Virus record (IMG/VR): IMGVR_UViG_3300036859_000090
Coordinates: 1-22,576 of that record
Strand: one strand, 5' to 3'
From: a virus
DNA: 22,576 bases
Position 1 is the first letter of the stretch. Each line of letters opens with the position of its first letter. The notes below the pieces were generated by a model. It worked only from the letters and a program-made list of their open reading frames with translations, was not told the DNA's origin and searched no databases. Positions 1,333 through 16,332 of this stretch are shown here, one piece after another. The position numbers and the translations under genes are program-made.

Positions 1333-1390
1333 CGCGGGCTTAGATTTTTCCTCGCGCGTCGTCGGGTAACAGCAGGGCGCGCGATGTAAG

Positions 1391-1536
1391 GCCAGAACTG
1401 TGGGATAGCCCTGAAATACTGGTGAGCGGCGGCGAAGGCAGCACCGCTCGGGCGAAAAGGCTGCCGGGTGTAAGGCTCCGCACGGCGAAGGCTTACTGAA
1501 GGCACCTAGGATGGTCTAGGTGCGACAACCGCTGGC
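1391..1536 (+). ncRNA. structured non-coding stretch after the HNH gene
   Basis: The 207 bases between the HNH stop and the next gene hold no supported CDS but contain several helices: GAGCGG/CCGCTC (1424-1429/1444-1449), GTAAG/CTTAC (1470-1474/1492-1496) and a perfect 8-bp hairpin GCACCTAG/CTAGGTGC (1502-1509/1516-1523). GCCAG (1391-1395) can close the whole on CTGGC (1532-1536). The motif GGCGAA recurs four times. This could be a mobile-gene-associated RNA, a leader of the next gene, or chance structure in GC-rich DNA. I see no group I intron core. Confidence 0.28.
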
Positions 1537-2716: not shown

Positions 2717-2995
2717 ATGAATTACAGGGCGGGTGATGAGGTAATTTGCATTGACGCAAGGCCCATTAAGGGCGGCAGATTCACTTTATTGAAGGTAGGC
2801 AAGTGCTACAAAGCAGTCGGCTTCTCTAGGTGTTGCAGCCAATTGGTGGGAGAAGATTTCCCGGGGGTGAACGAGTGCCCCCTATGCCGCGCCACTGACC
2901 AGAGCAATGCGTTCTATGCTTGGCGCTTCATAAAGCTCGACGGACTTAAAGAAGAGATAGTAACGGACCGCACACTGGTAACCACTTCACAATGA
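2717..2995 (+). CDS. Cys-containing hypothetical phage protein
   Basis: 92 residues. The ATG at 2717 is preferred over the upstream TTG at 2693 because AGGAGG and GGGG lie just upstream and the conserved-looking body starts here (YRAGDEVICID...). The middle holds CC...ECPLC, so one metal site built from Cys residues is plausible. Proteins beginning with a GDEVICID-type strand followed by Cys pairs are common small phage proteins of unknown role. It ends in an ATGA overlap with ninB. Confidence 0.65.
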   Translation: MNYRAGDEVICIDARPIKGGRFTLLKVGKCYKAVGFSRCCSQLVGEDFPGVNECPLCRATDQSNAFYAWRFIKLDGLKEEIVTDRTLVTTSQ

Positions 2996-3387
2996 GGCGC
3001 ATCATCCTCGCCAAGCAATCCCGCCCCTTTGCCCACCAATGCATCAACGAAGCCCCAGACGGCTGGTGTCTGACCATTGCGGAGCCTACCCGCAACCTGG
3101 ATCAGAACGCGCTCTTACACGCAGTCCTATCCGACATAGCCGAGCAACTGGAATGGGCCGGGAAGAAGCGAGATATTGAGACATGGAAACGGCTGCTGGT
3201 GGCTGCCTGGATGCGCGCCACGGGGCGCAATGTGACTTTGCTACCTGCCATAGACGGGCAGGGCTTCGATGCGCTGTACGCCCGCACAAGCAAGTTGAGC
3301 AAGGCTGAGTGCGCGGAATTGATCGATTACGTGACTGCGTGGGCTGTTGATAACGAAGTTATCCTGAAGATAATGGAGGCGGCGTGA
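2992..3387 (+). CDS. ninB: NinB-like recombination protein
   Basis: 131 residues, the usual length. The family signature is clear: TRNLDQNALLHAVLSDIAEQ, WAGKKRDIETWKRLLVAAW, then the ending DGQGFDALYARTSKLSKAEC and ELIDYVTAWA. NinB (Orf) of lambda binds single-stranded DNA and acts in phage recombination, replacing host RecFOR functions. It sits among middle DNA-metabolism genes, coupled on both sides by 4-base overlaps. The assignment is secure; the symbol follows the lambda family. Confidence 0.9.
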   Translation: MRRIILAKQSRPFAHQCINEAPDGWCLTIAEPTRNLDQNALLHAVLSDIAEQLEWAGKKRDIETWKRLLVAAWMRATGRNVTLLPAIDGQGFDALYARTSKLSKAECAELIDYVTAWAVDNEVILKIMEAA

Positions 3388-5661: not shown

Positions 5662-5822
5662 GCATTAAATCTGCGGCTATCCTGACCGTCAAAGACGCGC
5701 CGGCAATGACCAAACGTGGAAGAAGGGCTATTGCGAATTGGCTACGCAAACAAGCCGACTTCCTTGAGCATGATGGCAAAGCGCTAGCCAAGCGGTTCAC
5801 TGCGCGCTATCTCTATGAGTAA
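5658..5822 (+). CDS. small basic helical phage protein
   Basis: 54 residues from the ATGA overlap. The sequence TKRGRRAIANWLRKQADFLEHDGKALAKRFTARYLYE is a charged helical pair. It lies directly before, and overlaps, the possible small terminase gene. It may act in the same packaging or DNA-binding step; this is inferred from position only. Confidence 0.55.
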   Translation: MSIKSAAILTVKDAPAMTKRGRRAIANWLRKQADFLEHDGKALAKRFTARYLYE

Positions 5823-6234
5823 TCAATTCATCAAAGCCCAAGAACAAGGGCTAGAACCCGGCGACGAAGGTTATCCAAAGGCCGAGAATCAATTCACCTC
5901 CGGCGGGCAGACCGAGCACCCCGAACAGGTCAGAGCAAAGATCAGAGCGGGCGTTGTGGCTCAATTCCTGGAGTCTGTGGTACAGGACAAGGACGAGAAA
6001 ACTGCTGACAGGGTCGCGGCAGCTAAAATCCTCTTCGATAAAACGCTGCCAAGCCTGAGTTCAATAGACCAAGTCAACCACGACGGGGACATGAACAATC
6101 CAGAGCAGACTAAGGCAAAGCTCAGGATGCTCATAAGTAAGTGCGATCCGGCCCTTTTATCCCAGATCCTGGGCGAGTGCGCGAGGGCTAATCCCGGCAT
6201 CGAAGTGGGAAAAGACACCGATCAGGCCGCGTAA
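5815..6234 (+). CDS. possible small terminase subunit
   Basis: 139 residues. After a polar N-terminus the core reads VRAKIRAGVVAQFLESVVQD, then ADRVAAAKILFDKTLPSLSSIDQV, an amphipathic pair of helices with the A-x-K-x-L-x-x-K-x-LP pattern often seen in phage small terminases and related DNA-packaging proteins. The C-terminal part (about 95-139) is a separate helical piece. Position fits: it is the last gene before the sugar island, beyond which lies the large terminase. No helix-turn-helix is obvious, so a scaffold- or adaptor-like role is an alternative. Confidence 0.45.
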   Translation: MSNQFIKAQEQGLEPGDEGYPKAENQFTSGGQTEHPEQVRAKIRAGVVAQFLESVVQDKDEKTADRVAAAKILFDKTLPSLSSIDQVNHDGDMNNPEQTKAKLRMLISKCDPALLSQILGECARANPGIEVGKDTDQAA

Positions 6235-6276
6235 TAACGCCATGCTGCACTGCGCTAGCCCCATAATGACCTGTCC

Positions 6277-6316
6277 CACCATGCATAACTGTGCATAACA
6301 CACTGATTGCATGGTG
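6277..6316. repeat. 9-bp inverted repeat with iteron-like tandem units
   Basis: CACCATGCA (6277-6285) and TGCATGGTG (6308-6316) are perfect inverted copies. Between and overlapping them TGCATAAC occurs twice, at 6282-6289 and 6292-6299. This is a protein-binding-site-like layout: operator, packaging-site or origin element. Confidence 0.5.
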
Positions 6317-6584
6317 TTGGTGCGCCGCACACAGATTTAACATAATGGCTATTCTGCGCAGTGGGTGGGAATAGTGGGTGCTCAGGTGGGAAACCAGCCC
6401 AATCGAGGGGTGGGGCAGCCCCCCCACAGACACATGAGTAATCACACTAGGCCCTCTCCATTTTTTACGGAGCAATGAAGCTCAATGCGGGGCCGGTCTC
6501 ACAGCCAGCGGGGCCGACCGGATGAAGAAACGCGGGGCTATGAACGGGGCGAAAGCCCGCAAGCCGCGACCCGCCCCAAGAGAA

Positions 6585-6605
6585 ACCACAACCTGTAGTG
6601 TCTAG
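6585..6605 (+). repeat. spaced direct repeat, copy 1
   Basis: ACCACAA-N4-TAGTGTC followed by TAG. The second copy lies 51 bp downstream with the same spacing (16 of 21 positions identical). The first half is identical to one arm of the operator at 5058. Confidence 0.5.
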
Positions 6606-6635
6606 TCTCCGAAAACGCGGGTTTATATCCGACCA

Positions 6636-6656
6636 ACCACAATAGATAGTGTCCAG
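6636..6656 (+). repeat. spaced direct repeat, copy 2
   Basis: ACCACAA-N4-TAGTGTC followed by CAG, ending 3 bases before the first start codon of the sugar island. A regulator bound here would sit on the 5' end of the island transcript. Confidence 0.5.
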
Positions 6657-6659
6657 AGT

Positions 6660-7550
6660 ATGCGAGTAATCCTCGGTAAAGGGTTTATCGGGTCTGCTTT
6701 ACAAAAGCGGCTGAACTGCCGGATCGTCAGTCACCAGGAGGCCGACCTTACAAAGCCCTTGGACGCGCTTTCGGCTGTTTCTGGTGCAGAAGTCGTTTAC
6801 CTCTGTGCCGGCAAGACTGGGGGTGTGGGAAGGATGTCTTCCGACCCCATGTCGTTCGTCTACCCGAACGTCAGGATCCACATGGGCGTTTTCGAAGCCT
6901 GCGTAAAAGCCGGGGTTAAAAGGGTGGTCTGTGTCGGGTCTACCACCGGCTACCCGGACTCCGGGGATGCCATGACCGAGGACCGCTATCTGGAAGGCGA
7001 TTTACATCCGGCTTACTTCGTTCCAGGAAACGCCCATCGCTTCATCAAAAGACTGGCGATGATGCACAAAGACCTTGAAACGGTGTTTTTCCGGCCTTCT
7101 AACGTCTACGGGCCTGGAAACAACTTCGATCCTCAAAACTCCCACGTCATCGAGGCAACCATAAGGAAGGTTGCTGAAAGACAGAATCCCTTTGTGATCT
7201 GGGGAACCGGGAATGAGGTCCGGGACGCGATCTATATCGACGACCTCGCGGAAGCCATGACCTACGGCGAGACCTGTGCTCCGGGAGACTACAACGTCGG
7301 GTCCGGGGAAGAGATGTCTGTAAATCATATTGCCGCCAGCCTGCGTCAATATGTCAATTTGCTTGGCGAAGATGCCGGGGTTAAATACAACCCGGATATT
7401 ATCCACGACCTCTCCAAACCCACCGCTATTCCGGCCCGCAGGGTCAACTGCGACAAGTTAAAGTCTCTTGGTTGGAGGCCAAGGGTCTCAATGAAAGAGG
7501 GTTTACGAAAGACCTACGATTGGTATACAGAGCACAAAGGAGCGATATGA
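6660..7550 (+). CDS. GDP-fucose-synthase-like SDR with altered active site
   Basis: 296 residues, extended short-chain dehydrogenase/reductase. The NAD(P) loop is GKGFIGSAL (6-14). CAGKTGGVG (49-57), SNVYGPGNNFDPQNSHVI (147-164), VIWGTGNEVRDAIYIDDLA and the C-terminal LGWRP...LRKTYDWY follow GDP-L-fucose synthase (WcaG/Fcl) closely. In that family the catalytic set is Ser, Cys, Tyr-x-x-x-Lys and His. Here Ser94, Lys130 and His162 are kept, but Cys is replaced (Thr96) and the Tyr position is His126 (codon CAT in HRFIK). It is therefore either a different reaction on a nucleotide sugar or a degenerate enzyme. ATG 6660 has no strong ribosome-binding site. It is the first gene of the island and is coupled to the next by ATGA. 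Confidence 0.85.
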   Translation: MRVILGKGFIGSALQKRLNCRIVSHQEADLTKPLDALSAVSGAEVVYLCAGKTGGVGRMSSDPMSFVYPNVRIHMGVFEACVKAGVKRVVCVGSTTGYPDSGDAMTEDRYLEGDLHPAYFVPGNAHRFIKRLAMMHKDLETVFFRPSNVYGPGNNFDPQNSHVIEATIRKVAERQNPFVIWGTGNEVRDAIYIDDLAEAMTYGETCAPGDYNVGSGEEMSVNHIAASLRQYVNLLGEDAGVKYNPDIIHDLSKPTAIPARRVNCDKLKSLGWRPRVSMKEGLRKTYDWYTEHKGAI

Positions 7551-7825
7551 CAGCAAAGACGATGGAAGACATTTTCACGTTGCGGTTTCTGGCGTCCGAG
7601 GATCACAACGACCCCAAGGACCCATCACATTGGAAAGGATTTCGCTACGGCCTGAAGACGGCCTGGGCTATTGTCTATAAGGCCAATGTGGATAGGCGTC
7701 TTTTAAACGAGTTAGAGGCATTCTCGGAGTGGTCCAAGCGCAGACAACGCGAAAGCGCGGCCTTCATTCTCAAGCAGGCCAAGGTCAAGAGGTTGTCCAA
7801 GAAGGCGAACAAAAAACGCACGTGA
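7547..7825 (+). CDS. small hypothetical protein of the sugar island
   Basis: 92 residues from ATG 7547, with AAGGAG 5 bases upstream and an ATGA overlap with the SDR gene; a longer upstream frame only shadows that gene. It is Trp/Lys-rich (SHWKGFRYGLKTAWAIVYK), with a strongly basic C-terminal tail (KVKRLSKKANKKRT). No enzyme motif is seen. Placement between two sugar-enzyme genes suggests an accessory role, but none can be named. Confidence 0.65.
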   Translation: MTAKTMEDIFTLRFLASEDHNDPKDPSHWKGFRYGLKTAWAIVYKANVDRRLLNELEAFSEWSKRRQRESAAFILKQAKVKRLSKKANKKRT

Positions 7826-8334
7826 TTTCCGACGCAATCCTCGCCCGCCTAGCTTTAGAAGTCGATACCGTCTTCGGTGTTTATGGAGGCGCTATAGCAG
7901 AGCTGTGGGACGCCTTTACCAGACAGGACAAGCTCAAATATGTCTGCCCCATGCACGAACAGGCCGCTTCTTTCATGGCCGAAGGTTACGCGAAGGTACG
8001 CGGTTTTGGCGTTGCAATGGCAACAAGTGGCCCAGGGGGCCTTAATATGGTCACCGGCATTGGAAACTGTTTCTACGATTCCTGTCCTATGCTTTTCATT
8101 ACGGGACAGGTGCAAACAAGATTTATCAAGCCCAGCCCTGAAATAAGGCAGCTGGGTTTTCAGGAAACGGACATCGTTTCCATTGTAAAACCTATTACGA
8201 AGTACGCCGTAACAGTATTGCGCCCCGAGCAGGCCCTCCCGATGTTGGACATGGCGATCTACCTGGCGAAAGCCGGTAGGCCGGGGCCTGTTCTATTAGA
8301 CCTCCCTGTCGATGTACAACGAGCTGATTGCTGA
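7822..8334 (+). CDS. ThDP-dependent enzyme, PYR-domain subunit (acetolactate-synthase-like)
   Basis: 170 residues from GTG 7822 (GTGA overlap). It is a complete N-terminal pyrimidine-binding domain: VDTVFGVYGG, the catalytic-Glu motif MHEQAASFMAEGYAK (Glu46), ATSGPGGLNMVTGIGNCFYD and the domain end RPGPVLLDLPVDVQ. In acetolactate synthase and YerE-type enzymes this Glu activates thiamine diphosphate of the neighbouring chain. The protein stops where the linker to the middle domain should begin, and the next gene supplies the rest from a 23-base overlap in another frame. Candidate role: decarboxylating pyruvate (or a similar 2-keto acid) and attaching the carbon unit to a keto-sugar. The substrate is inferred only from context. 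Confidence 0.85.
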   Translation: MISDAILARLALEVDTVFGVYGGAIAELWDAFTRQDKLKYVCPMHEQAASFMAEGYAKVRGFGVAMATSGPGGLNMVTGIGNCFYDSCPMLFITGQVQTRFIKPSPEIRQLGFQETDIVSIVKPITKYAVTVLRPEQALPMLDMAIYLAKAGRPGPVLLDLPVDVQRADC

Positions 8335-9463
8335 TCTGAAGCAGGCAAAAAAGCCTGTCTTGCTGATCGGGGGAGGGGTTCATAAATACCGGGAAGAGTT
8401 CAAAGCCTTAACCGAAGTCCTAAGGATACCCGCCTATGCGACCTGGAATGCCCTCGATATTGTCACGTCTGATCTTGAGACTTACGCGGGCGTGGTCGGC
8501 ACTTATGGCGGACCCGGACGAAACTTCGGAATTCAAAGCGCTGATCTCCTCATCTCCATCGGGTCCCGTATCTCCGGACGTATCACTGGCGGAATTCCGG
8601 AGAATTTCGCGCCTCTTGCGAAAAAGTGGCTCATTGAGATCGACCCGGGACTACTCGGACAATTTCAACCAGTCAAGTTCGACAGGAATATCGAGTCTGA
8701 CGCCGGAGAGTTCATGTCTGGACTCACTCGGAAACTTGGAGGAGAGAAACTAGATTTTGAGGCGTGGTTGAAAAGGTGCAAAGACTGGGCCGTAAAATAC
8801 GACCCCGTGAAGGCGGAATACTTCAAGAGCTTCCATCATTACGGCTTCGTGCGGAAATTATCAGAAAGGCTCCCCGCAAACGCGGTCCTCGTTTCCGACA
8901 CGGGCGGTAACGTGATCATGATGGGCCACTGCTTCAAGTCGAAGTGGGGGCAAAGGCTTTTCACCTCCAATGGCAATACCGCGATGGGCTTCGCCTTTTG
9001 TGGGGCCTTGGGAGCGTGGTTCGCGAATCCCGAAAGACCCGTAATCTGTCTTATAGGAGACGGGGGGTTCAACATGAACATCCAAGAGATTCAAACCATG
9101 TTGAACTACGGGTGTAATGTTAAAACCTTCATCCTAAACAACCATTGCTACGGCAACACAAAACTTTACCAAAAGTCCAACTACGGATCGAGATTCCTGG
9201 CTTGTGGGCCGGATGGGTACAACCCGCCGAACTTTGAAGCCATTGCTAGGGGCTATAACGTTCCCGTTGTTGACAGGATTGACTGCTACTGCAATCTCGA
9301 AGAAAAGATTGACGATCTCATTAAGCACCCGTTCCCGGCGATCATAGACGTTGTACATCACGATTTCTACGACTACTACCCGAGAATTTCGAGGTTTGAC
9401 CAGGAACTTCACGACCAGGACCCTCTGCTACCAAGAGGGGAGATTGAGGAGAATATGAGATGA
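8312..9463 (+). CDS. ThDP-dependent enzyme, middle and PP-domain subunit
   Basis: 383 residues. Residues 1-150 are the central Rossmann-like domain (KPVLLIGGGVH, GTYGGPGRNFGIQSADLLISIGSR), which binds FAD in acetolactate-synthase relatives. Residues 175-365 are the pyrophosphate domain with the ThDP/Mg motif GDG (249-251) and NN (276-277), plus FTSNGNTAMGFAFCGALGAW. Together with the upstream gene this equals one normal enzyme of about 550 residues, cut exactly at the linker. ATG 8312 lies within the upstream gene with no Shine-Dalgarno, so coupled translation is likely. No key residue is missing. It could also be a frameshifted single gene, but each piece has clean domain borders. Confidence 0.88.
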   Translation: MYNELIADLKQAKKPVLLIGGGVHKYREEFKALTEVLRIPAYATWNALDIVTSDLETYAGVVGTYGGPGRNFGIQSADLLISIGSRISGRITGGIPENFAPLAKKWLIEIDPGLLGQFQPVKFDRNIESDAGEFMSGLTRKLGGEKLDFEAWLKRCKDWAVKYDPVKAEYFKSFHHYGFVRKLSERLPANAVLVSDTGGNVIMMGHCFKSKWGQRLFTSNGNTAMGFAFCGALGAWFANPERPVICLIGDGGFNMNIQEIQTMLNYGCNVKTFILNNHCYGNTKLYQKSNYGSRFLACGPDGYNPPNFEAIARGYNVPVVDRIDCYCNLEEKIDDLIKHPFPAIIDVVHHDFYDYYPRISRFDQELHDQDPLLPRGEIEENMR

Positions 9464-9624
9464 AGGATTGGATCGAGTTTTTTGTAGTCATCTTGCTTGC
9501 GGCGCTTATTTTGACAGCCCCTATGCTTTATATGAGAGATGCCGCCATGCCGCCACAGTTTTTTATGCTACCTATTGCTTGGTGTGGCGTGATGTACCTG
9601 ATTTGGGATTGGGACATATTCTGA
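9460..9624 (+). CDS. small two-helix membrane protein in the sugar island
   Basis: 54 residues from the ATGA overlap at 9460. Residues 6-24 (EFFVVILLAALILTAPMLY) and about 32-49 (QFFMLPIAWCGVMYLIW) are hydrophobic, joined by MRDAAMPP; the C-terminus is WDWDIF. It is probably an inner-membrane hairpin. Its frame is separate from the apparent N-terminal extension of the next SDR gene, showing that this extension is not coding. Possible roles include anchoring glycan enzymes or helping a lipid-linked sugar step; neither is shown. Confidence 0.6.
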   Translation: MKDWIEFFVVILLAALILTAPMLYMRDAAMPPQFFMLPIAWCGVMYLIWDWDIF

Positions 9625-10526
9625 GAATATTAGTCACCGGGGGAGCTGGCTATATCGGCTCCGTCCTCGTACCGAAACTGCTTGAGAAGCACGAAGTCAC
9701 CGTCCTCGATAATTTCATCTACAGGCAGAATTCTCTAGCTCAACTCTGTAAGCAAAAGAACTTCGATGTTTACAAAGTCGATTGTAGAGACTCGCTTTCT
9801 GTAAAGCCCTTCCTGAGAAGGGCTGACGTAATAATCCCGCTGGCTGCTTTGGTGGGGGTTCCGCTCTGTAATCTGAACCCGATAGACGCGGCTTTATTGA
9901 ACCTTCATGCCCCGCTGGAGATGTTCAAGAACCTCTCCCAAGAGCAGCTTGTAATCATGCCGACGACTGAAAGTTCCTACGGGAGCAATGCGGACGTTTG
10001 CACCGAGGAAACACCGGCAAACCCGCTCTCGACTTACGCAGAACACAAGCTGGAGGTCGAAAACGCCCTTCTTCAGAGAGACAAGAGCATAAGCCTGCGG
10101 TTAGCCACTGTTTTCGGCATGAGTCCGAGAATGAGGCTCGATCTGCTGATCAACGATTTCGTCTGGAGGGCGCAGAAAGACCGCGCCTTCGTGCTGTTTG
10201 AAGCGCGGTATAGGCGGACCTGTGTCCATGTAACCGATGTTGCAAGAGCTTTCCTGCACGCCTTGGAGAAGAACCTCAGGGGCATTTACAACGTCGGGGC
10301 TGTGACGTTAACCAAGCAAAGCCTCTGCGAGGCGATAAACAATCATTCGAAATTCACCTTCATAGAGGCGGATTTCGATAAAGACCCGGATCAAAGAGAC
10401 TACATCGTTTCCGACGATAAGATCAGGAAAACCGGATTCCAGCCGATGGTTGACTTGGATACGGGCATTAAAGAGCTTCTGAAGGGCTTCCGGATGCTTT
10501 CCAACTCGGTGCATGGCAACGTCTAA
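9621..10526 (+). CDS. NAD-dependent nucleotide-sugar epimerase/dehydratase (extended SDR)
   Basis: About 301 residues. GGAGYIG (7-13) is the classical GxxGxxG loop, LDNF (29-32) the ribose-binding end, PLAALVG the substrate loop, and STYAEHK carries the catalytic Tyr139 and Lys143 with Thr/Ser at 115-119. RLATVFGMSPRMR and YNVG follow the UDP-glucose 4-epimerase/dTDP-glucose dehydratase pattern. Unlike the first SDR of the island, all catalytic residues are present. The start is unusual: homology begins at CTG 9621, which overlaps the TGA of the membrane gene (CTGA). TTG 9609 would add only four residues and is the conventional alternative; the ATG at 9468 would add a non-homologous 51-residue leader. 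Confidence 0.85.
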   Translation: MRILVTGGAGYIGSVLVPKLLEKHEVTVLDNFIYRQNSLAQLCKQKNFDVYKVDCRDSLSVKPFLRRADVIIPLAALVGVPLCNLNPIDAALLNLHAPLEMFKNLSQEQLVIMPTTESSYGSNADVCTEETPANPLSTYAEHKLEVENALLQRDKSISLRLATVFGMSPRMRLDLLINDFVWRAQKDRAFVLFEARYRRTCVHVTDVARAFLHALEKNLRGIYNVGAVTLTKQSLCEAINNHSKFTFIEADFDKDPDQRDYIVSDDKIRKTGFQPMVDLDTGIKELLKGFRMLSNSVHGNV

Positions 10527-11502
10527 CCTCCAAGCCCTGGAACTGGTAATAGACCGCTCCGAAGGGGGCGGCAAGGTTTCCCGGGAGCTGATGAAGAAGA
10601 AGCTTCGCAAGGCTCAGCGCGAAGGCCGGTTCATGGAGATACCCAAAGACCCGGAGTGGCGTTTCAGGATCTGTTCTGCAAACCTGATGCTGGGAAATTA
10701 CAACTGGGACGGCTGGGAATTCAGGGACCCGTGGGCTACGATGCTCTGGTTAAACCCAACGGCTTTACAAAAGCCCCGGTGGGAAGGGCAGAAGGGCCGA
10801 GTCTTGATTCTTGGAGAGCAGGGTTTAGGGGATGAAATAATGTTCGCCTCCTGCATTCCGGAGATTCAGAAGACCAACGAGATCGGAATTACCTGCATTC
10901 CAAGACTGAAATCCATCTTCGAGCGAAATTTCGGATGCCCTGTTTATGACAGAAACGAAGGCAAAGAACTCACCAGAGCAAGAGAACTCCTCGAAGACTA
11001 CGACTACTACATCGGCTTTGGAGACTTACCACGACTGCTTAGACGCAGCCGCGCTGATTTCCCTGGAACGCCATTCCTCATTCCGGACAGAAATCTGGAA
11101 TCCCAAATGGAAATGTATCGTGGAAAAGTCGGAATCTCATGGAGAGGGCGCAATGGATTCTATCCCCTCAAAGACTTCCCGCCTGGGATAAGTCTCCAAT
11201 ACGACTTGGCCTGGGATGAAGATCCGGAGCTACCCCATATCGACGTTAGAAACGATATGGAAGGGCTTTTGGCTCTGGTATCGGTGCTTGAAAAGGTGGT
11301 TTGCGTTTCGACGACCGTAACGCACTTTGCCGGCGCTTTGGGTAAGAAGGTGGAAGTGATTTTGGCCCCGATTCAAACGGCGAGATCGAAGAATCAAATG
11401 AACTGGCGGCATGGTTTGAATAGACCCACAAGCGACTGGTACAAGTCTGCTTTGATTTACCGGAACCTTGATGAGTGGAGGCGACACCATCGGATTCGGT
11501 GA
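10513..11502 (+). CDS. glycosyltransferase, GT9/heptosyltransferase fold
   Basis: 329 residues. After a basic helical N-terminus (1-60), GEQGLGDEIMFASCIPEI (101-118) is the nucleotide-sugar-fold entry of TPR-linked/GT9-type enzymes. VGISWRG opens the second Rossmann domain, and VVCVSTTVTHFAGALGKKVEVILAP near the end is the donor-binding segment of this GT-B group. It probably transfers a sugar to a lipid-linked or surface glycan on the cytoplasmic side. ATG 10513 overlaps the previous gene by 14 bases. Donor and acceptor cannot be read from the sequence. Confidence 0.78.
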   Translation: MATSNLQALELVIDRSEGGGKVSRELMKKKLRKAQREGRFMEIPKDPEWRFRICSANLMLGNYNWDGWEFRDPWATMLWLNPTALQKPRWEGQKGRVLILGEQGLGDEIMFASCIPEIQKTNEIGITCIPRLKSIFERNFGCPVYDRNEGKELTRARELLEDYDYYIGFGDLPRLLRRSRADFPGTPFLIPDRNLESQMEMYRGKVGISWRGRNGFYPLKDFPPGISLQYDLAWDEDPELPHIDVRNDMEGLLALVSVLEKVVCVSTTVTHFAGALGKKVEVILAPIQTARSKNQMNWRHGLNRPTSDWYKSALIYRNLDEWRRHHRIR

Positions 11503-12220
11503 CGATTTCATTGTCACTTCCATCGTAAAGAAGGCCTACGCAAAACATAACAAGCCGATCTGCGTAGGCGACGGAAGAGATATCAAGTGGGAAGAGGTTT
11601 TCGACAATAACCCAAAACTGTCGAAAGCTGTCTATCCGGGCGCGGTGTGGGTGAACAATATCATGTTCAACAGACCCTACATCGACAACCTCAAAACAAC
11701 GCCTGAGAGGGTTGTTTATAACCCGAGCTTCAAAGCCGAACCAGGGGAAATTTTCCTTACTGATGCCGAGAGAGACCGATTCAAAGACTCCGGATTCATC
11801 TACATCGAACCCAACGTCAAGGGTTCATTTGGTGGTAATAAAGACTGGGGCTTCGACAAATGGCAGGAAGTTGTCAAACGTCTACCCTATCGATTCGTAC
11901 AGGGGAAAGGCAGGAAGCTCGACGGCGTTGAACAGATTCAAACTGGTAGTTTCAGAGAAGCCTGCGCTCTCCTGGAGAGATCAGACTTTTTCGTCGGGAC
12001 GGACGGGGGCCTACATCATGCCGCCGCAGCCCTTGGAAAGCGGGCGGTGGTTGTTTGGGGTGGACTGGTTTCCCCCAAGATCCTGGGTTATGACGCCCAT
12101 ATCAACCTACATTCAGGAACCCATTCCTGCGGCTCGCCAAAAGCCTGTGCTCACTGCCGTAAAGCCCTAGATTGGGTCACTGTAGACATGGTGAAAGATG
12201 CTATCCGTTCTCTTGCCTAG
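11471..12220 (+). CDS. second GT9-like glycosyltransferase
   Basis: 249 residues from ATG 11471 (a TTG one codon earlier is possible). GFGDDFIVTSIV near the start corresponds to the G-x-GD loop, and SDFFVGTDGGLHHAAAALGK followed by RAVVVWGG (171-198) is the heptosyltransferase-type C-terminal motif. It is shorter than usual GT9 enzymes (about 320-350). It ends with a Cys cluster (HSCGSPKACAHC) that could bind metal. It overlaps the preceding transferase by 32 bases; the two are probably different paralogues acting in sequence. Confidence 0.72.
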   Translation: MSGGDTIGFGDDFIVTSIVKKAYAKHNKPICVGDGRDIKWEEVFDNNPKLSKAVYPGAVWVNNIMFNRPYIDNLKTTPERVVYNPSFKAEPGEIFLTDAERDRFKDSGFIYIEPNVKGSFGGNKDWGFDKWQEVVKRLPYRFVQGKGRKLDGVEQIQTGSFREACALLERSDFFVGTDGGLHHAAAALGKRAVVVWGGLVSPKILGYDAHINLHSGTHSCGSPKACAHCRKALDWVTVDMVKDAIRSLA

Positions 12221-12818
12221 TCGTGGAAGGCCGGAGATGTGTTACCTGGCTGTGGAATCTGCGCGCAACACAGCTAAGGGCGACATCGAGATTCTTGTCT
12301 ATCTGGACGAGGACGATCCGAGTACATATTGGGTTGGTGGTAATGTCATCAGGGGCAAGCCAAGGCGCTCGGGCGAGGCCATTCGCCACCTCTACTCCTT
12401 AGCTAAGGGCGATCTATTCTACTTCGGCTCCGACGACATCACCTGGGAAACAGAAGGCTGGGATCTAATCTTCAAGGAGAAGATGTCAACGCATGGACTT
12501 GCTGTTCTCTACCCTGACATGGGGGATTCGTGTAATCCCTGCTTCACAAGAAAGTGGGTCGAAACGGTAGGACTGTTCCCTGATTACTTCAAGCATTTCG
12601 GCCCTGATACGTGGTACGCGGACATCGCTAAGAGAGCAGGAACTTTGATCAACGTCCCAGAAGTCAGGATGACGCACCAAAGAGTAAGGGACGAGACCTA
12701 TACAAGAACGCGGGCGGACGGAGATGGAATGTTCGCCCAGAGAATGCTCGACGAAACCAAAGAAGAGAGACAACGATTAGCCGAGAAAGTAAAGACGCTC
12801 TTATCCTCCGAATCCTGA
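12198..12818 (+). CDS. GT-A-type glycosyltransferase (GT2-like)
   Basis: 206 residues. It starts LSVLLPSRGRPEMCYLAVES, typical of GT2-like enzymes; VYLDEDD and FYFGSDD (74-80) give acidic clusters where the metal-binding DxD lies. The C-terminal half (NPCFTRKWVETVGLFPDYF, then GPDTWYADIAKRAG) matches the acceptor half of such small phage/bacterial transferases. ATG 12198 lies inside the previous gene. It probably makes one glycosidic bond of the island's glycan. Confidence 0.75.
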   Translation: MLSVLLPSRGRPEMCYLAVESARNTAKGDIEILVYLDEDDPSTYWVGGNVIRGKPRRSGEAIRHLYSLAKGDLFYFGSDDITWETEGWDLIFKEKMSTHGLAVLYPDMGDSCNPCFTRKWVETVGLFPDYFKHFGPDTWYADIAKRAGTLINVPEVRMTHQRVRDETYTRTRADGDGMFAQRMLDETKEERQRLAEKVKTLLSSES

Positions 12819-13471
12819 AGGGGATAGAGGAGGCAAGACCGCTTCCAGGAAGGGATAAATGGGAAGCCTGCTGGCGAGAGCACGAAGATCTCATCCCCCC
12901 GTATTATCACTCTGACATCATTCGAGAGTATGGGGAATTCAAGTATGTCCCCAATGGGTATGAGTATTCCAGGTTTTGCGGGATCAGAGACAGGCTTTTG
13001 CATGAATACTGTGAAGATATGCCTGTTTACGAATTCGGTTGCGGAACCGGACATAACCTCACCGGATTGATGAATTGCAAGGGCTTTGATTGGTCCGGAA
13101 GCGCTGTAAGGAAACTCAGAGACCGCGGAATCGATGCGGATGTCTTTGATATGCTGAACCCGACGCCAATGGAAATACCCGGCGCCGCAGTTACATTCCA
13201 TGCGCTTGAACAATTGGGAAAGAACTTCCGGCCTTTCCTTGACTTTCTCTTGGAAGCAAGGCCTAAAGTCGTGGTTCACGTCGAACCGATTTTAGAGCTG
13301 TACGAAGACAACCTTCTCGATTACCTCGCTGTGCAATACCACAAGAAACGAGGCTATCTGGAAGGCTATCTTGAGGCGGTCATAAACTCAGGTGCTGAGA
13401 TTTTAGAGCTGAAGCGAAATCACTTCGGCTCTCTTTACCATGATGCCTATTCGGTGCTGGTATGGCGATAG
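12815..13471 (+). CDS. SAM-dependent class I methyltransferase, probable CTG start
   Basis: 218 residues if started at CTG 12815, which overlaps the previous TGA (CTGA). Motif I is VYEFGCGTGHNL (71-82). FDWSGSAVRKL and DVFDMLNP give the acidic residues that contact SAM; VTFHALEQLG is the motif IV/post-IV region and HFGSLYHDAYSVLVW the C-terminal strands. In this frame no ATG, GTG or TTG occurs between an in-frame stop near 12631 and TTG 12998. Using TTG 12998 would cut the protein just before motif I and discard a plausible N-terminal cap. The likely role is methylating a sugar of the glycan; a small-molecule or protein target is not excluded. Confidence 0.75.
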   Translation: MKGIEEARPLPGRDKWEACWREHEDLIPPYYHSDIIREYGEFKYVPNGYEYSRFCGIRDRLLHEYCEDMPVYEFGCGTGHNLTGLMNCKGFDWSGSAVRKLRDRGIDADVFDMLNPTPMEIPGAAVTFHALEQLGKNFRPFLDFLLEARPKVVVHVEPILELYEDNLLDYLAVQYHKKRGYLEGYLEAVINSGAEILELKRNHFGSLYHDAYSVLVWR

Positions 13472-14232
13472 CGGTCTACGGCTGTGCAACCCCGATCAGG
13501 ATGCACGTAGCAAGAGCGATGGCTACTTACCTCAAGTGCCCTTTGTACGAGGAAGGAAAGCCTTCCTACAGGGGCGGGGATTCGATTGTCTGGGGGTTGA
13601 TAAGGGGTTCTCCCGCAGTAATAGAAGCCACCAAAGCCGCCGGCTGCAATTACTACCAGCTAGACAATGGTTATTTTGGCCGGAATTCATATTACCGTTT
13701 TACAAAGAACGCCTTTCAACAAACAACTTTGAAAGAGCGGAAGCCGGATCGGTGGGAGCATATCAAAAAGCATCACAGCCTTGAATTGAAGCCCTGGAAG
13801 AAAGACGGTTCCAAAGTCCTGTTCTGTCTCTCCACGGAACACCTGTACCGCTTTCTGGGTCTGGATATCGCGGTCTACCGAACCAAGACCCTAAGACGGC
13901 TGAAGGAAGTCACGCAAAGAGAGATCGTGGTCAGGGAGAAAGACGCGGTAGGCCCTATAGAGGACGCCCTTAAGGATGCGTGGTGCGTGGTAACGCATAC
14001 CTCCGCAGTCGCTTTGGATGCGCTGAGGTTCGGGGTTCCGGTGTTTACTACGGGCTTGAATGCCGCAGACCCCTGTGCTTTGAAAGACGTGACTTACTTG
14101 GATACCCCGATTTACCCGGAAAGAGAACCCCTGTTCTGGAGCCTTGCATACAGTCAATGGCTCCCAGAGGAGATGCAATTAGGACGAGCTTGGAATGAAT
14201 GCTTAGAATCTTCCTCGGCTACGACCGTTTAG
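13462..14232 (+). CDS. GT-B-like glycosyltransferase (capsule-type)
   Basis: 256 residues. VYGCATPIRMHVARAM opens an N-terminal Rossmann-like domain, and CNYYQLDNGYFGRNSYYRFT is a segment I associate with phage-encoded capsule-type transferases. The C-terminal AWCVVTHTSAVALDALRFGV (171-190) followed by PVFTTG resembles the donor-site segment of Kdo/capsule transferases (TH/S-S-x-A-x-E/D-A-L-x-x-G-x-P). It overlaps both neighbours (10 and 34 bases). The assignment is by motif only. Confidence 0.6.
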   Translation: MAIAVYGCATPIRMHVARAMATYLKCPLYEEGKPSYRGGDSIVWGLIRGSPAVIEATKAAGCNYYQLDNGYFGRNSYYRFTKNAFQQTTLKERKPDRWEHIKKHHSLELKPWKKDGSKVLFCLSTEHLYRFLGLDIAVYRTKTLRRLKEVTQREIVVREKDAVGPIEDALKDAWCVVTHTSAVALDALRFGVPVFTTGLNAADPCALKDVTYLDTPIYPEREPLFWSLAYSQWLPEEMQLGRAWNECLESSSATTV

Positions 14233-14879
14233 AACCCGTCGTACATCATGTCTGTGCCCATAGCATCTTAAGACGAAGTTCGATACCCGTCAGCATCATC
14301 CCGCTAAACCGCGATTGCCTTCGCGGTTTTTTTTCGCGAAGCCGAGGCCCTTACGACTCGACGGACTTTGCGATAACGAGATTTCTGGTCCCGTTCATTT
14401 GCGAGTTTCAGGGTTTCTCTGTCTTCATGGACGGAGACATGGTTTGCCTGGGAGACGTAGCCGAACTCTCGGGCTATATGACTTTGATGGACCGTTATAA
14501 CTACGCAGTGAGGGTAGTAAAGCATGACTACACGCCGCCCGAAGAGACCAAGTTTCTCGGACAAATCCAGACCAAGTACGAAAAGAAAAACTGGTCTTCC
14601 GTCATGGTCTTCAATAACGCTTTGTGTACGAAACTTACTCCAGACTATGTGGAGAAAGCTCCGGGGTTAGAACTGCACCAATTCAGATGGTGCAAGAAAG
14701 AACAAGTAGCGGACATGCCCAAGGCATGGAATTACCTGGTGGGAGTTTATCCGAAAACAGAGAACGTGAAACTTCTCCACTACACCAAGGGGACACCTTG
14801 TTTCCCTGATTACAAGGACTGCGATTACGCCCAGGTCTGGCATGACGAATACAAGGACATGGTGAATTTTGGACATTGA
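14199..14879 (+). CDS. GT-A glycosyltransferase (GT8-like), last gene of the sugar island
   Basis: 226 residues. IFLGYDRLEPVVHHVCAHSI is the family start. STDFAITRFLVPFI precedes VFMDGDMVCLGDVAEL with the metal-binding D-G-D (78-80). AVRVVKHDYTPP, KFLGQIQTKYEKKNWSSVMV and PKAWNYLVGVYP, then LLHYTKGTPCFPDY, complete a well-conserved pattern. Reaction: transfer from a nucleotide sugar, retaining mechanism if truly GT8. Its end overlaps the terminase start by 11 bases, so island and packaging genes share one transcript. The coding sequence contains a terminator-shaped hairpin (14306-14334). Confidence 0.85.
   Translation: MLRIFLGYDRLEPVVHHVCAHSILRRSSIPVSIIPLNRDCLRGFFSRSRGPYDSTDFAITRFLVPFICEFQGFSVFMDGDMVCLGDVAELSGYMTLMDRYNYAVRVVKHDYTPPEETKFLGQIQTKYEKKNWSSVMVFNNALCTKLTPDYVEKAPGLELHQFRWCKKEQVADMPKAWNYLVGVYPKTENVKLLHYTKGTPCFPDYKDCDYAQVWHDEYKDMVNFGH
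14306..14334 (+). terminator. strong intrinsic terminator shape inside the GT8-like gene
   Basis: AAACCGCGA (14306-14314) pairs perfectly with TCGCGGTTT (14321-14329), loop TTGCCT, and the T-run reaches 14334 (eight T in a row). It lies about 110 bases into the coding sequence. It may attenuate transcription before the terminase gene, or be overridden by antitermination. Confidence 0.6.
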
Positions 14880-16332
14880 GCGCGAGATTGTAAAAGCGCT
14901 TGAAGAGCTTGAACACATCAATGCGATAAACAGACTTTCCAAGTATGACCCCTATCCCTACCAAAGCAACTTCCACAACGCGATAGGGTTTGACACCGAA
15001 ATACCTGCGAAACAGCGCTTCCTGATGGCTGCCAACGGGGTAGGAAAGACCATCTGCGGCGGGATGGAAGCGGCCATGCATTTAACGGGGATTTACCCGG
15101 ACTGGTTCAAAGGGACCCGTTTTCATTATCCGGTTGAAATGGTTGTTGGAGCTAAAACAAACGACGCCGCGGTAAAAGTCGTTCAGAAGATCCTGTTCGG
15201 CGATGCGATGGACAAGCAGAGTCTTGGGACAGGATGCATCCCCAAGAAATACCTGAACACGAATTTCAAGATGAAGCCCGGCATTCCGGGGGCCATTGGT
15301 GAGGCGATGGTGAAGCACATCACCGGGCGATGGTCGAAAGTCGCGGTGATGTCCTATGACCAGAAACCCAAAGCCTTCATGGGAATTCGGTTCGACGTGG
15401 GCTGGCTGGACGAAGAACCGCCTTCGGATATTTGGTCGCAGTTCATCCGAGGCACGTTATCGAGGATCAACGCGATTCTCTACATAACAGCAACCCCGGA
15501 AGAGGGAATGACTCCTACGGTCATTCAGTTTTCCAACGACCTTAAAAAAGGGCAAGCCCTTATACAAGCGACCTGGGCCGATGCGCCCCATTTGAGCGAC
15601 GAAGAGAAAGAACAGCGCCTCGCTGCTTTTCCTGAACACGAACGGGACATGCGCTCTAAAGGCATTCCGATGTTCGGGCAAGGACTTATTTTCCCGTTCC
15701 CTGATGAGCAGCTTCTAGTAGACCCGATTCAGATTCCGGACTACTGGCCGCAGATCGTGGGAATCGACTTCGGTGGCGGAAGATCAAAGGGAGGACACCC
15801 GTTCGCCGCTGCAAACCTCGCGTGGGACAGGGACTCGGATACGGTGTATCTGACCTCTGAATACAGGGTTAAGGCACAAATCCCCACACAACATGCGGAC
15901 ACGATCAAGAAATGGGGTAGTTGGAAACCCGTCGCCTGGCCGCATGACGGCTTGAATACAGAGAAGGGTACGGGAGATCAGTTGAGGGAATCCTACTCGA
16001 ATGCTGGCTTAAACATGCTTCGGGAGAAAGCCACGAATCCCCCTGACTATGCACAAGGACAGGAAGAAGGTCAGGGCGGCATTTCGAGGGAAAAGTCTTT
16101 ACTCGATCTTTACGACAGGATGGAAAACGGCAAATTCAAGGTATTCAGAACTTGCCCAATTTTTGCCGAGGAGAAACGCATGTACCACCGTGACGAACAT
16201 GGAAAGGTCGTTGATCTCATGGATGACGTAATAAGCGCAACTCGTTACGCCCATATGATGCTGCGGCATAGTTCGACCAAGACCTTGAAGCTCAAGAAGC
16301 CTCAAATGGCTGTCGGCATCCGGAACTGGTGA
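14869..16332 (+). CDS. terminase large subunit
   Basis: 487 residues from TTG 14869, with GGTGA 5 bases upstream; the start lies inside the GT8-like gene. The ATPase half has Walker A AANGVGKT (54-61), Walker B FDVGWLDEE (175-183) and ITATPEEG as coupling motif. The RNase H-like nuclease half has IVGIDFGGG (Asp300), WPHDG (Asp360) and VVDLMDDVISATRYA (Asp452/453). It is the motor that pumps DNA into the prohead through the portal and cuts the concatemer. Length and motif set are complete. It is coupled to the portal gene by a GTGA/ATG junction. Confidence 0.95.
   Translation: MDIEREIVKALEELEHINAINRLSKYDPYPYQSNFHNAIGFDTEIPAKQRFLMAANGVGKTICGGMEAAMHLTGIYPDWFKGTRFHYPVEMVVGAKTNDAAVKVVQKILFGDAMDKQSLGTGCIPKKYLNTNFKMKPGIPGAIGEAMVKHITGRWSKVAVMSYDQKPKAFMGIRFDVGWLDEEPPSDIWSQFIRGTLSRINAILYITATPEEGMTPTVIQFSNDLKKGQALIQATWADAPHLSDEEKEQRLAAFPEHERDMRSKGIPMFGQGLIFPFPDEQLLVDPIQIPDYWPQIVGIDFGGGRSKGGHPFAAANLAWDRDSDTVYLTSEYRVKAQIPTQHADTIKKWGSWKPVAWPHDGLNTEKGTGDQLRESYSNAGLNMLREKATNPPDYAQGQEEGQGGISREKSLLDLYDRMENGKFKVFRTCPIFAEEKRMYHRDEHGKVVDLMDDVISATRYAHMMLRHSSTKTLKLKKPQMAVGIRNW

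Follow-up and report, generated by a model that had tools for sequence, protein, structure and literature searches.

A thiamine diphosphate enzyme encoded by two genes in a phage glycosylation island, and a possible route to a branched sugar

What might a phage build with a row of sugar genes placed directly before its large terminase gene? The question was raised by the virus record IMGVR_UViG_3300036859_000090, which was analysed as the whole IMG/VR record of 22,576 bases and is called the window here. From 6660 to 14879 it carried an unbroken plus-strand series of 12 open reading frames (ORFs), in which each adjacent pair overlapped by 3-34 nt. The most unusual feature of this island was a thiamine diphosphate (ThDP) enzyme divided between two genes, and the sugar-modifying enzymes and glycosyltransferases around it gave a hint of the pathway in which it could act.

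A ThDP enzyme divided between two genes

The ThDP enzyme was encoded by two genes, a split that the original prediction had not noticed. Subunit 1 (7822-8334, plus strand, 170 aa, GTG start) held only the PYR domain (Pfam TPP_enzyme_N, 1.4e-32), and subunit 2 (8312-9463, plus strand, 383 aa) held the TH3 and PP domains (TPP_enzyme_M, 7.1e-22; TPP_enzyme_C, 1.3e-36). The two ORFs overlapped by 23 nt in different frames. In Nitrospira and other bacteria, relatives that were mostly about 43-51% identical consisted of one chain of about 600-650 aa, including a linker of some 20-35 residues. Counted as ORFs holding both domains, the one-chain enzyme was present at 33 bacterial and 41 viral loci, a few of the latter possibly being near-duplicates.

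The break between PYR and TH3-PP was common to six viral contigs: the window, L091, L132 and three relatives found via a terminase search (L002, L003 and L004, which are 43-45 kb long and come from other metagenomes). In all six the linker of about 25 residues was nearly lost, the first chain stopped directly after the PYR domain (...DVQ...), and an ATG or GTG of its own opened the second ORF 4-23 nt before the first one ended. In another contig, L054, the break lay between TH3 and PP, so that PYR and TH3 shared a chain and the linker was retained; this break, seen in a single contig, might be a sequencing error.

The sequence motifs of the enzyme type were intact. In the PYR subunit, HEQAASFMA at residue 45 corresponded to the catalytic Glu51 motif of ThDP decarboxylases (PMC3534367); the TH3-PP subunit had GDGGFNMN at 249 (GDG-X24-NN) and DLLISIG at 78 (the D280 motif). 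All three motifs, including the one with the catalytic Glu, were retained in the halves of all six split enzymes. Thus, among the marks of the ThDP decarboxylase superfamily, Glu51, GDG-X24-27-N and D280 were present, and the arrangement of PYR-TH3-PP on one chain was absent. Between the window and L002, dN/dS was 0.07 for the PYR chain and 0.08 for the TH3-PP chain.

In a bootstrapped tree, five related split sequences and L054 formed one group (96/88) beside the fused viral sequence L106 (3300037470_000091), whose locus shares the order g1-ThDP-g4, and L132 was placed elsewhere, apart from the other split sequences. Two changes were taken when split was coded against fused and three with three-state coding; at least two independent splits of the enzyme among viruses are needed. 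The virion genes of the carriers differed, with a P22-type portal in L091 and L054, an SU10-type capsid in L132 and another type in the window. As related viruses have kept or repeated this cut between domains, the two-gene enzyme is a real and testable new version of a known type.

Out-of-frame overlaps as short as 4-23 nt would also fit programmed ribosomal frameshifting, which would join the two ORFs into one protein. This reading was rejected as very improbable since the frame offset differed among relatives, the downstream ORF being in +1 in the window, L002, L004 and L132 and in +2 in L003 and L091; moreover, no common slippery site was found, the downstream ORF always had a start codon of its own, the linker was missing, and the neighbouring island genes overlapped in the same manner. 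That the break is due to faulty sequencing or gene decay is hardly credible. On the tree not every split has to be independent, and L054 alone could be an error, but the same boundary in six contigs with the same loss of linker speaks against it, and a pseudogene was rejected on the low dN/dS and the intact motifs of both halves.

A precedent for such a division is the split-gene transketolase of Carboxydothermus hydrogenoformans, an active alpha2beta2 enzyme without interdomain linker (PMC7661550). In both enzymes PYR and PP are on separate chains and the linker is absent; however, the Carboxydothermus enzyme belongs to the transketolase family and has PP on its first chain, whereas the phage enzyme belongs to the decarboxylase family and has TH3. 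No literature report of a split enzyme of the acetohydroxyacid synthase (AHAS) or YerE type was found, only the split transketolase, in a search that covered subscription papers thinly. As far as searched, the PYR/TH3-PP two-chain architecture would be unreported for the decarboxylase superfamily; this, taken jointly with a viral branched-sugar pathway, is proposed tentatively. Among isolated phages there was no close homologue, the best matches having less than 35% identity across the TH3-PP half; many of them resembled host DNA inside phage records. Campylobacter phages A11a and A18a were among the matches, and the A11a record is marked UNVERIFIED.

Likely chemistry and proposed pathway

The closest solved enzymes were 5ahk for the PYR half and both JanthE (8rph) and 5ahk for the TH3-PP half, for which JanthE ranked first by profile and was also the top fold match (E 2.6e-21). 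JanthE is a YerE-like enzyme, which couples 2-keto acids to ketones (PMC12247030). The sugar C-branching enzymes YerE, ErwE and JanthE have the same AHAS-type three-domain fold and motifs and are encoded with sugar short-chain dehydrogenases/reductases (SDRs). The YerE-like enzymes of PMC12247030 are not described as split, whereas the phage enzyme has a separate PYR gene and no linker. The acceptor would differ too: the phage context points to a Cj1427-type 4-ketone, in contrast to CDP-4-keto-3,6-dideoxyglucose for the YerE type.

Two SDR genes flank the ThDP genes. The downstream one, g4 (9621-10526, plus strand), was predicted to encode a Cj1427-like NAD-dependent nucleotide-sugar C4-dehydrogenase. 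It matched PDB 6vo6 (E 6.5e-98, 331 bits, residues 3-311) far ahead of all other solved structures; this entry, labelled a putative sugar-nucleotide epimerase/dehydratase in the structure search, is presumably Cj1427. As in a Cj1427-type enzyme, the similarity was full-length and YxxxK was intact, with Y145 and K149 invariant and a dN/dS of 0.04. Cj1427 oxidises C4 of GDP-manno-heptose (PMC10680097). Cj1427-like SDR genes were very common in viral contigs (336 stretches were confirmed and the best 80 kept; loci L139-L216).

The upstream gene, g1 (6660-7550, plus strand), encoded a member of a phage SDR subfamily that resembles GDP-L-fucose synthase (PDB 8du0, E 1.3e-47; NF047922, 164 bits against a cut-off of 500; dN/dS 0.11). 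Neither the SYK triad nor the catalytic Cys of GDP-L-fucose synthase was intact: Y119-x-x-x-G123 replaced YxxxK, and in all aligned phage homologues the Lys was changed to Gly and the Cys of SxC to Thr. Compared with the GDP-heptose pathway of the Campylobacter jejuni capsule, g4 is strongly similar to Cj1427 and g1 shares a broad family with the C4-reductases; on the other hand, no ThDP step is described for that pathway in the passages covered, and the phage was without genes for making GDP-heptose.

The gene neighbourhood was similar in other genomes. Among 34 bacterial and 48 viral loci, 23 and 33, respectively, had a g4-like SDR no further than about 8 kb from the ThDP gene, and 21 and 11 had an HddA-like heptose kinase. 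The Nitrospira loci had a similar SDR, an HddA-like kinase and an HddC-like transferase near the ThDP gene, with the two family scores below curated cut-offs. In L132, which is another phage type, a GHMP kinase like the Nitrospira HddA-like protein (9158-10165) directly followed the split ThDP gene. By sequence similarity and gene context, the ThDP enzyme would add an acyl unit to a nucleotide-sugar ketone.

Several points weigh against this chemistry or leave room within it. The similarity of the enzyme to ordinary AHAS was nearly as strong as that to the YerE type, so its donor and acceptor are deduced from context; the substrate of the pathway could be a hexose; and g1, which lacks the catalytic Lys, can be given a step only tentatively. 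An acetolactate synthase that aids branched-chain amino-acid synthesis of the host, as an auxiliary metabolic gene, would agree with the best NCBIfam model (acolac_lg, below its cut-off) and with the listing of such viral genes as ilvB auxiliary genes (PMC8226683). It is nevertheless unlikely: the gene sits between two sugar SDRs and beside glycosyltransferases, the island was without a gene for the regulatory subunit, and a Cj1427-like SDR, often with a heptose kinase, is found nearby in both bacteria and viruses.

For sugar C-branching, the simplest route, which we consider to have about an even chance, would run from C4 oxidation through two-subunit ThDP C-branching to further SDR and methyl steps and soluble transfer. 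By strong homology, g4 would make a 4-ketone by oxidising C4 of a nucleotide sugar that the host supplies and that is probably a GDP-heptose or a GDP-hexose. The ThDP pair could then decarboxylate a 2-keto acid such as pyruvate and join the acyl unit to the ketone, giving a C-branched sugar, as modelled on YerE in yersiniose synthesis. Like the Carboxydothermus transketolase, it would be a hetero-oligomer whose PYR and PP domains belong to different chains, and without the linker its active site may be accessible to a bulky acceptor. With its altered active site, g1 might reduce or epimerise the product, g8 may methylate it, and four or five soluble glycosyltransferases would act in the cytoplasm, transferring the branched sugar along with others either to virion proteins or to the lipopolysaccharide (LPS) core of the host.

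Modification of a nucleotide sugar followed by several transfers, as originally predicted, was thus supported, while sugar activation by the island was not. The nucleotidyltransferase family PF00483 was not found in a dedicated search of eight related or comparison viral records; the window, which was outside this search, gave no nucleotidyltransferase-family match to its island genes in general family searches. The host therefore probably supplies the nucleotide sugar.

Layout and conservation of the island

The ten core genes of the island were all present in L002, L003 and L004, in one common slot ahead of the large terminase gene, although g7 and g8 were exchanged in L003 and L004 and g5 came first in L004. 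Since these relatives come from other metagenomes and share both genes and slot, a mis-joined contig, which had been named as a danger for this locus, is ruled out. All ten core genes are under purifying selection (dN/dS of 0.03-0.11 between window and L002). The originally predicted coupling of the genes was confirmed by their overlaps; the count of ten was not: there are 12 ORFs, two of them specific to the window. One is g2 (7547-7825, plus strand, 92 aa), which had no family and for which L002-L004 leave no room, g1 and the PYR gene overlapping there; the other is a hydrophobic ORF of 54 aa between the ThDP gene and g4 (9460-9624, plus strand), absent from L002, where there is likewise no room for it.

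On the right, the last island gene, g10, overlapped the start of the large terminase gene (14869-16332, plus strand, TTG start at 14869), as had been noted; the assignment of the terminase was backed by phrog_2 (2.3e-30), and its identity to the window was 94% in L002, 70% in L003 and 68% in L004. On the left, a gap of 425 bases separated the island from a possible small terminase gene (5815-6234, plus strand, 139 aa). Its position was conserved, with 88, 48 and 38% identity in L002, L003 and L004, while no match in Pfam or PHROG supported the family. No sigma-70-like promoter was found at 5700-7000.

In more distant relatives the slot was filled differently. Only g5, g6 and g7 were present in L005, and MW202713.1 had g5, a methyltransferase-domain gene, a g9-like gene and a pyridoxal phosphate enzyme; in Baldr and a Vibrio phage, which have related terminases, no sugar gene was annotated there. 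The slot thus serves this lineage as a modular site for glycan genes. The explanation as a whole, which sees in the island a glycosylation module stably kept by these podophages, is given even chances.

Five glycosyltransferase-like proteins had been predicted, of which g6 and g7 were firm. The g6 gene (11471-12220, plus strand) encoded a GT9, heptosyltransferase-family enzyme (Glyco_transf_9, PF01075, 1.1e-7) with a weak match to solved LPS heptosyltransferases, and g7 (12198-12818, plus strand) a GT-A enzyme of phage type (phrog_14945 glycosyltransferase, 1.6e-15) with a weak GT2 match. Two others resembled annotated proteins. The g5 product (10513-11502, plus strand), probably a GT-B heptosyltransferase- or TibC-like enzyme, had no Pfam family and was 37% identical to an MW202713.1 protein annotated as 'glycosyltransferase tibC', which is also encoded upstream of the large terminase gene. 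The g10 product (14199-14879, plus strand), probably GT-A and GT8-like, matched phrog_28018 of unknown function (5.9e-44), had a GT8 match of 0.0058, below the cut-off, and was 49% identical to a 'putative glycosyltransferase' of Pelagibacter phage Mosig. The fifth, g9 (13462-14232, plus strand), is a conserved protein (dN/dS 0.03), possibly GT-B, but its assignment was unsupported: the AlphaFold model was poor (pLDDT 51.6), and nothing significant was matched when its fold was searched. Searches of solved structures gave no match for g5, g7 and g9. The proposed methyltransferase g8 (12815-13471, plus strand, 218 aa) was taken as S-adenosylmethionine-methyltransferase-like from an EFGCGTGxN motif, conserved in four phages; no family was matched.

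Both g4 (9621) and g8 (12815) appeared to begin at CTG inside a CTGA stop-start overlap with the preceding gene, and the same arrangement was present in L002 at 4730 and 7936. At the conserved N-termini, no ATG, GTG or TTG was available for g4 or g8 in L002, or for g8 in the window; for g4 in the window, TTG at 9603 and 9609 are possible alternative starts. This suggests coupled initiation at CTG for both genes.

The left part of the window encoded a NinB protein and an HNH endonuclease (2992-3387 and 922-1332, respectively). At 1351-1469 (plus strand) the Betaproteobacteria-1 RNA of Rfam (RF02932, 82.3 bits, E 4.6e-14) was matched, which may hint at a betaproteobacterial host; this RNA was not found in the related loci checked.

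Target of the glycan and meaning for phages

Where would the sugar be placed? Hydropathy revealed no island enzyme with a clear membrane helix (maxima 1.85 for g4 and 1.78 for g5), and soluble enzymes fit cytoplasmic protein glycosylation or work on the LPS core, not a gtr-type O-antigen system; the gtrABC serotype-conversion clusters have the flippase GtrA and the polyprenyl glucosyltransferase GtrB, and the island had no such family match. A change of the host surface at the LPS core, leading to receptor change or a block of superinfection, and the decoration of virion proteins, for which mycobacteriophages Che8, Corndog and Myrna are examples, are equally plausible, each somewhat short of an even chance. 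GT9, GT8-like and GT2-like enzymes are the mix of LPS-core synthesis, and the island combines all three; L003, which carries an integrase, may moreover be temperate. Against the host surface stand the position within the late packaging and structural block and the lack of a flippase or polyprenyl step. For the virion, the late gene block and the cytosolic enzymes are in favour, as are the TibC-type annotation of the g5 relative and the precedent of phage virion glycosylation. Che8, Corndog and Myrna likewise encode glycosyltransferases, to which the present phage adds sugar-building enzymes beside its five candidates; however, the fibre region was not conserved between the window and L002, and no substrate protein was identified. 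Phage DNA, also listed among the original targets, is a very improbable one. One g7 relative weakly resembles TET-associated glycosyltransferases (0.041), but the window and nine other viral records yielded neither a TET/JBP nor a thymidylate-synthase-like base modifier, in searches of contigs which may be incomplete and, for TET/JBP, with no positive control.

Taken as one proposal, which we hold with rather less than even confidence, a three-domain ThDP carboligase would have been divided between its domains and shorn of its linker more than once in phages, and the two-subunit enzyme would build a virus-specific C-branched heptose or hexose to decorate virions or host LPS. YerE-like enzymes make chiral tertiary alcohols, which are wanted for biocatalysis, and viruses may hold surprising relatives of them (2025 review, PMC12247030). 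As the phage split coincides with the loss of the linker, these enzymes make it possible to test how the linker relates to acceptor size. The ThDP enzyme with a nearby Cj1427-like SDR is common in viral contigs and may be mistaken there for an amino-acid auxiliary gene (ilvB).

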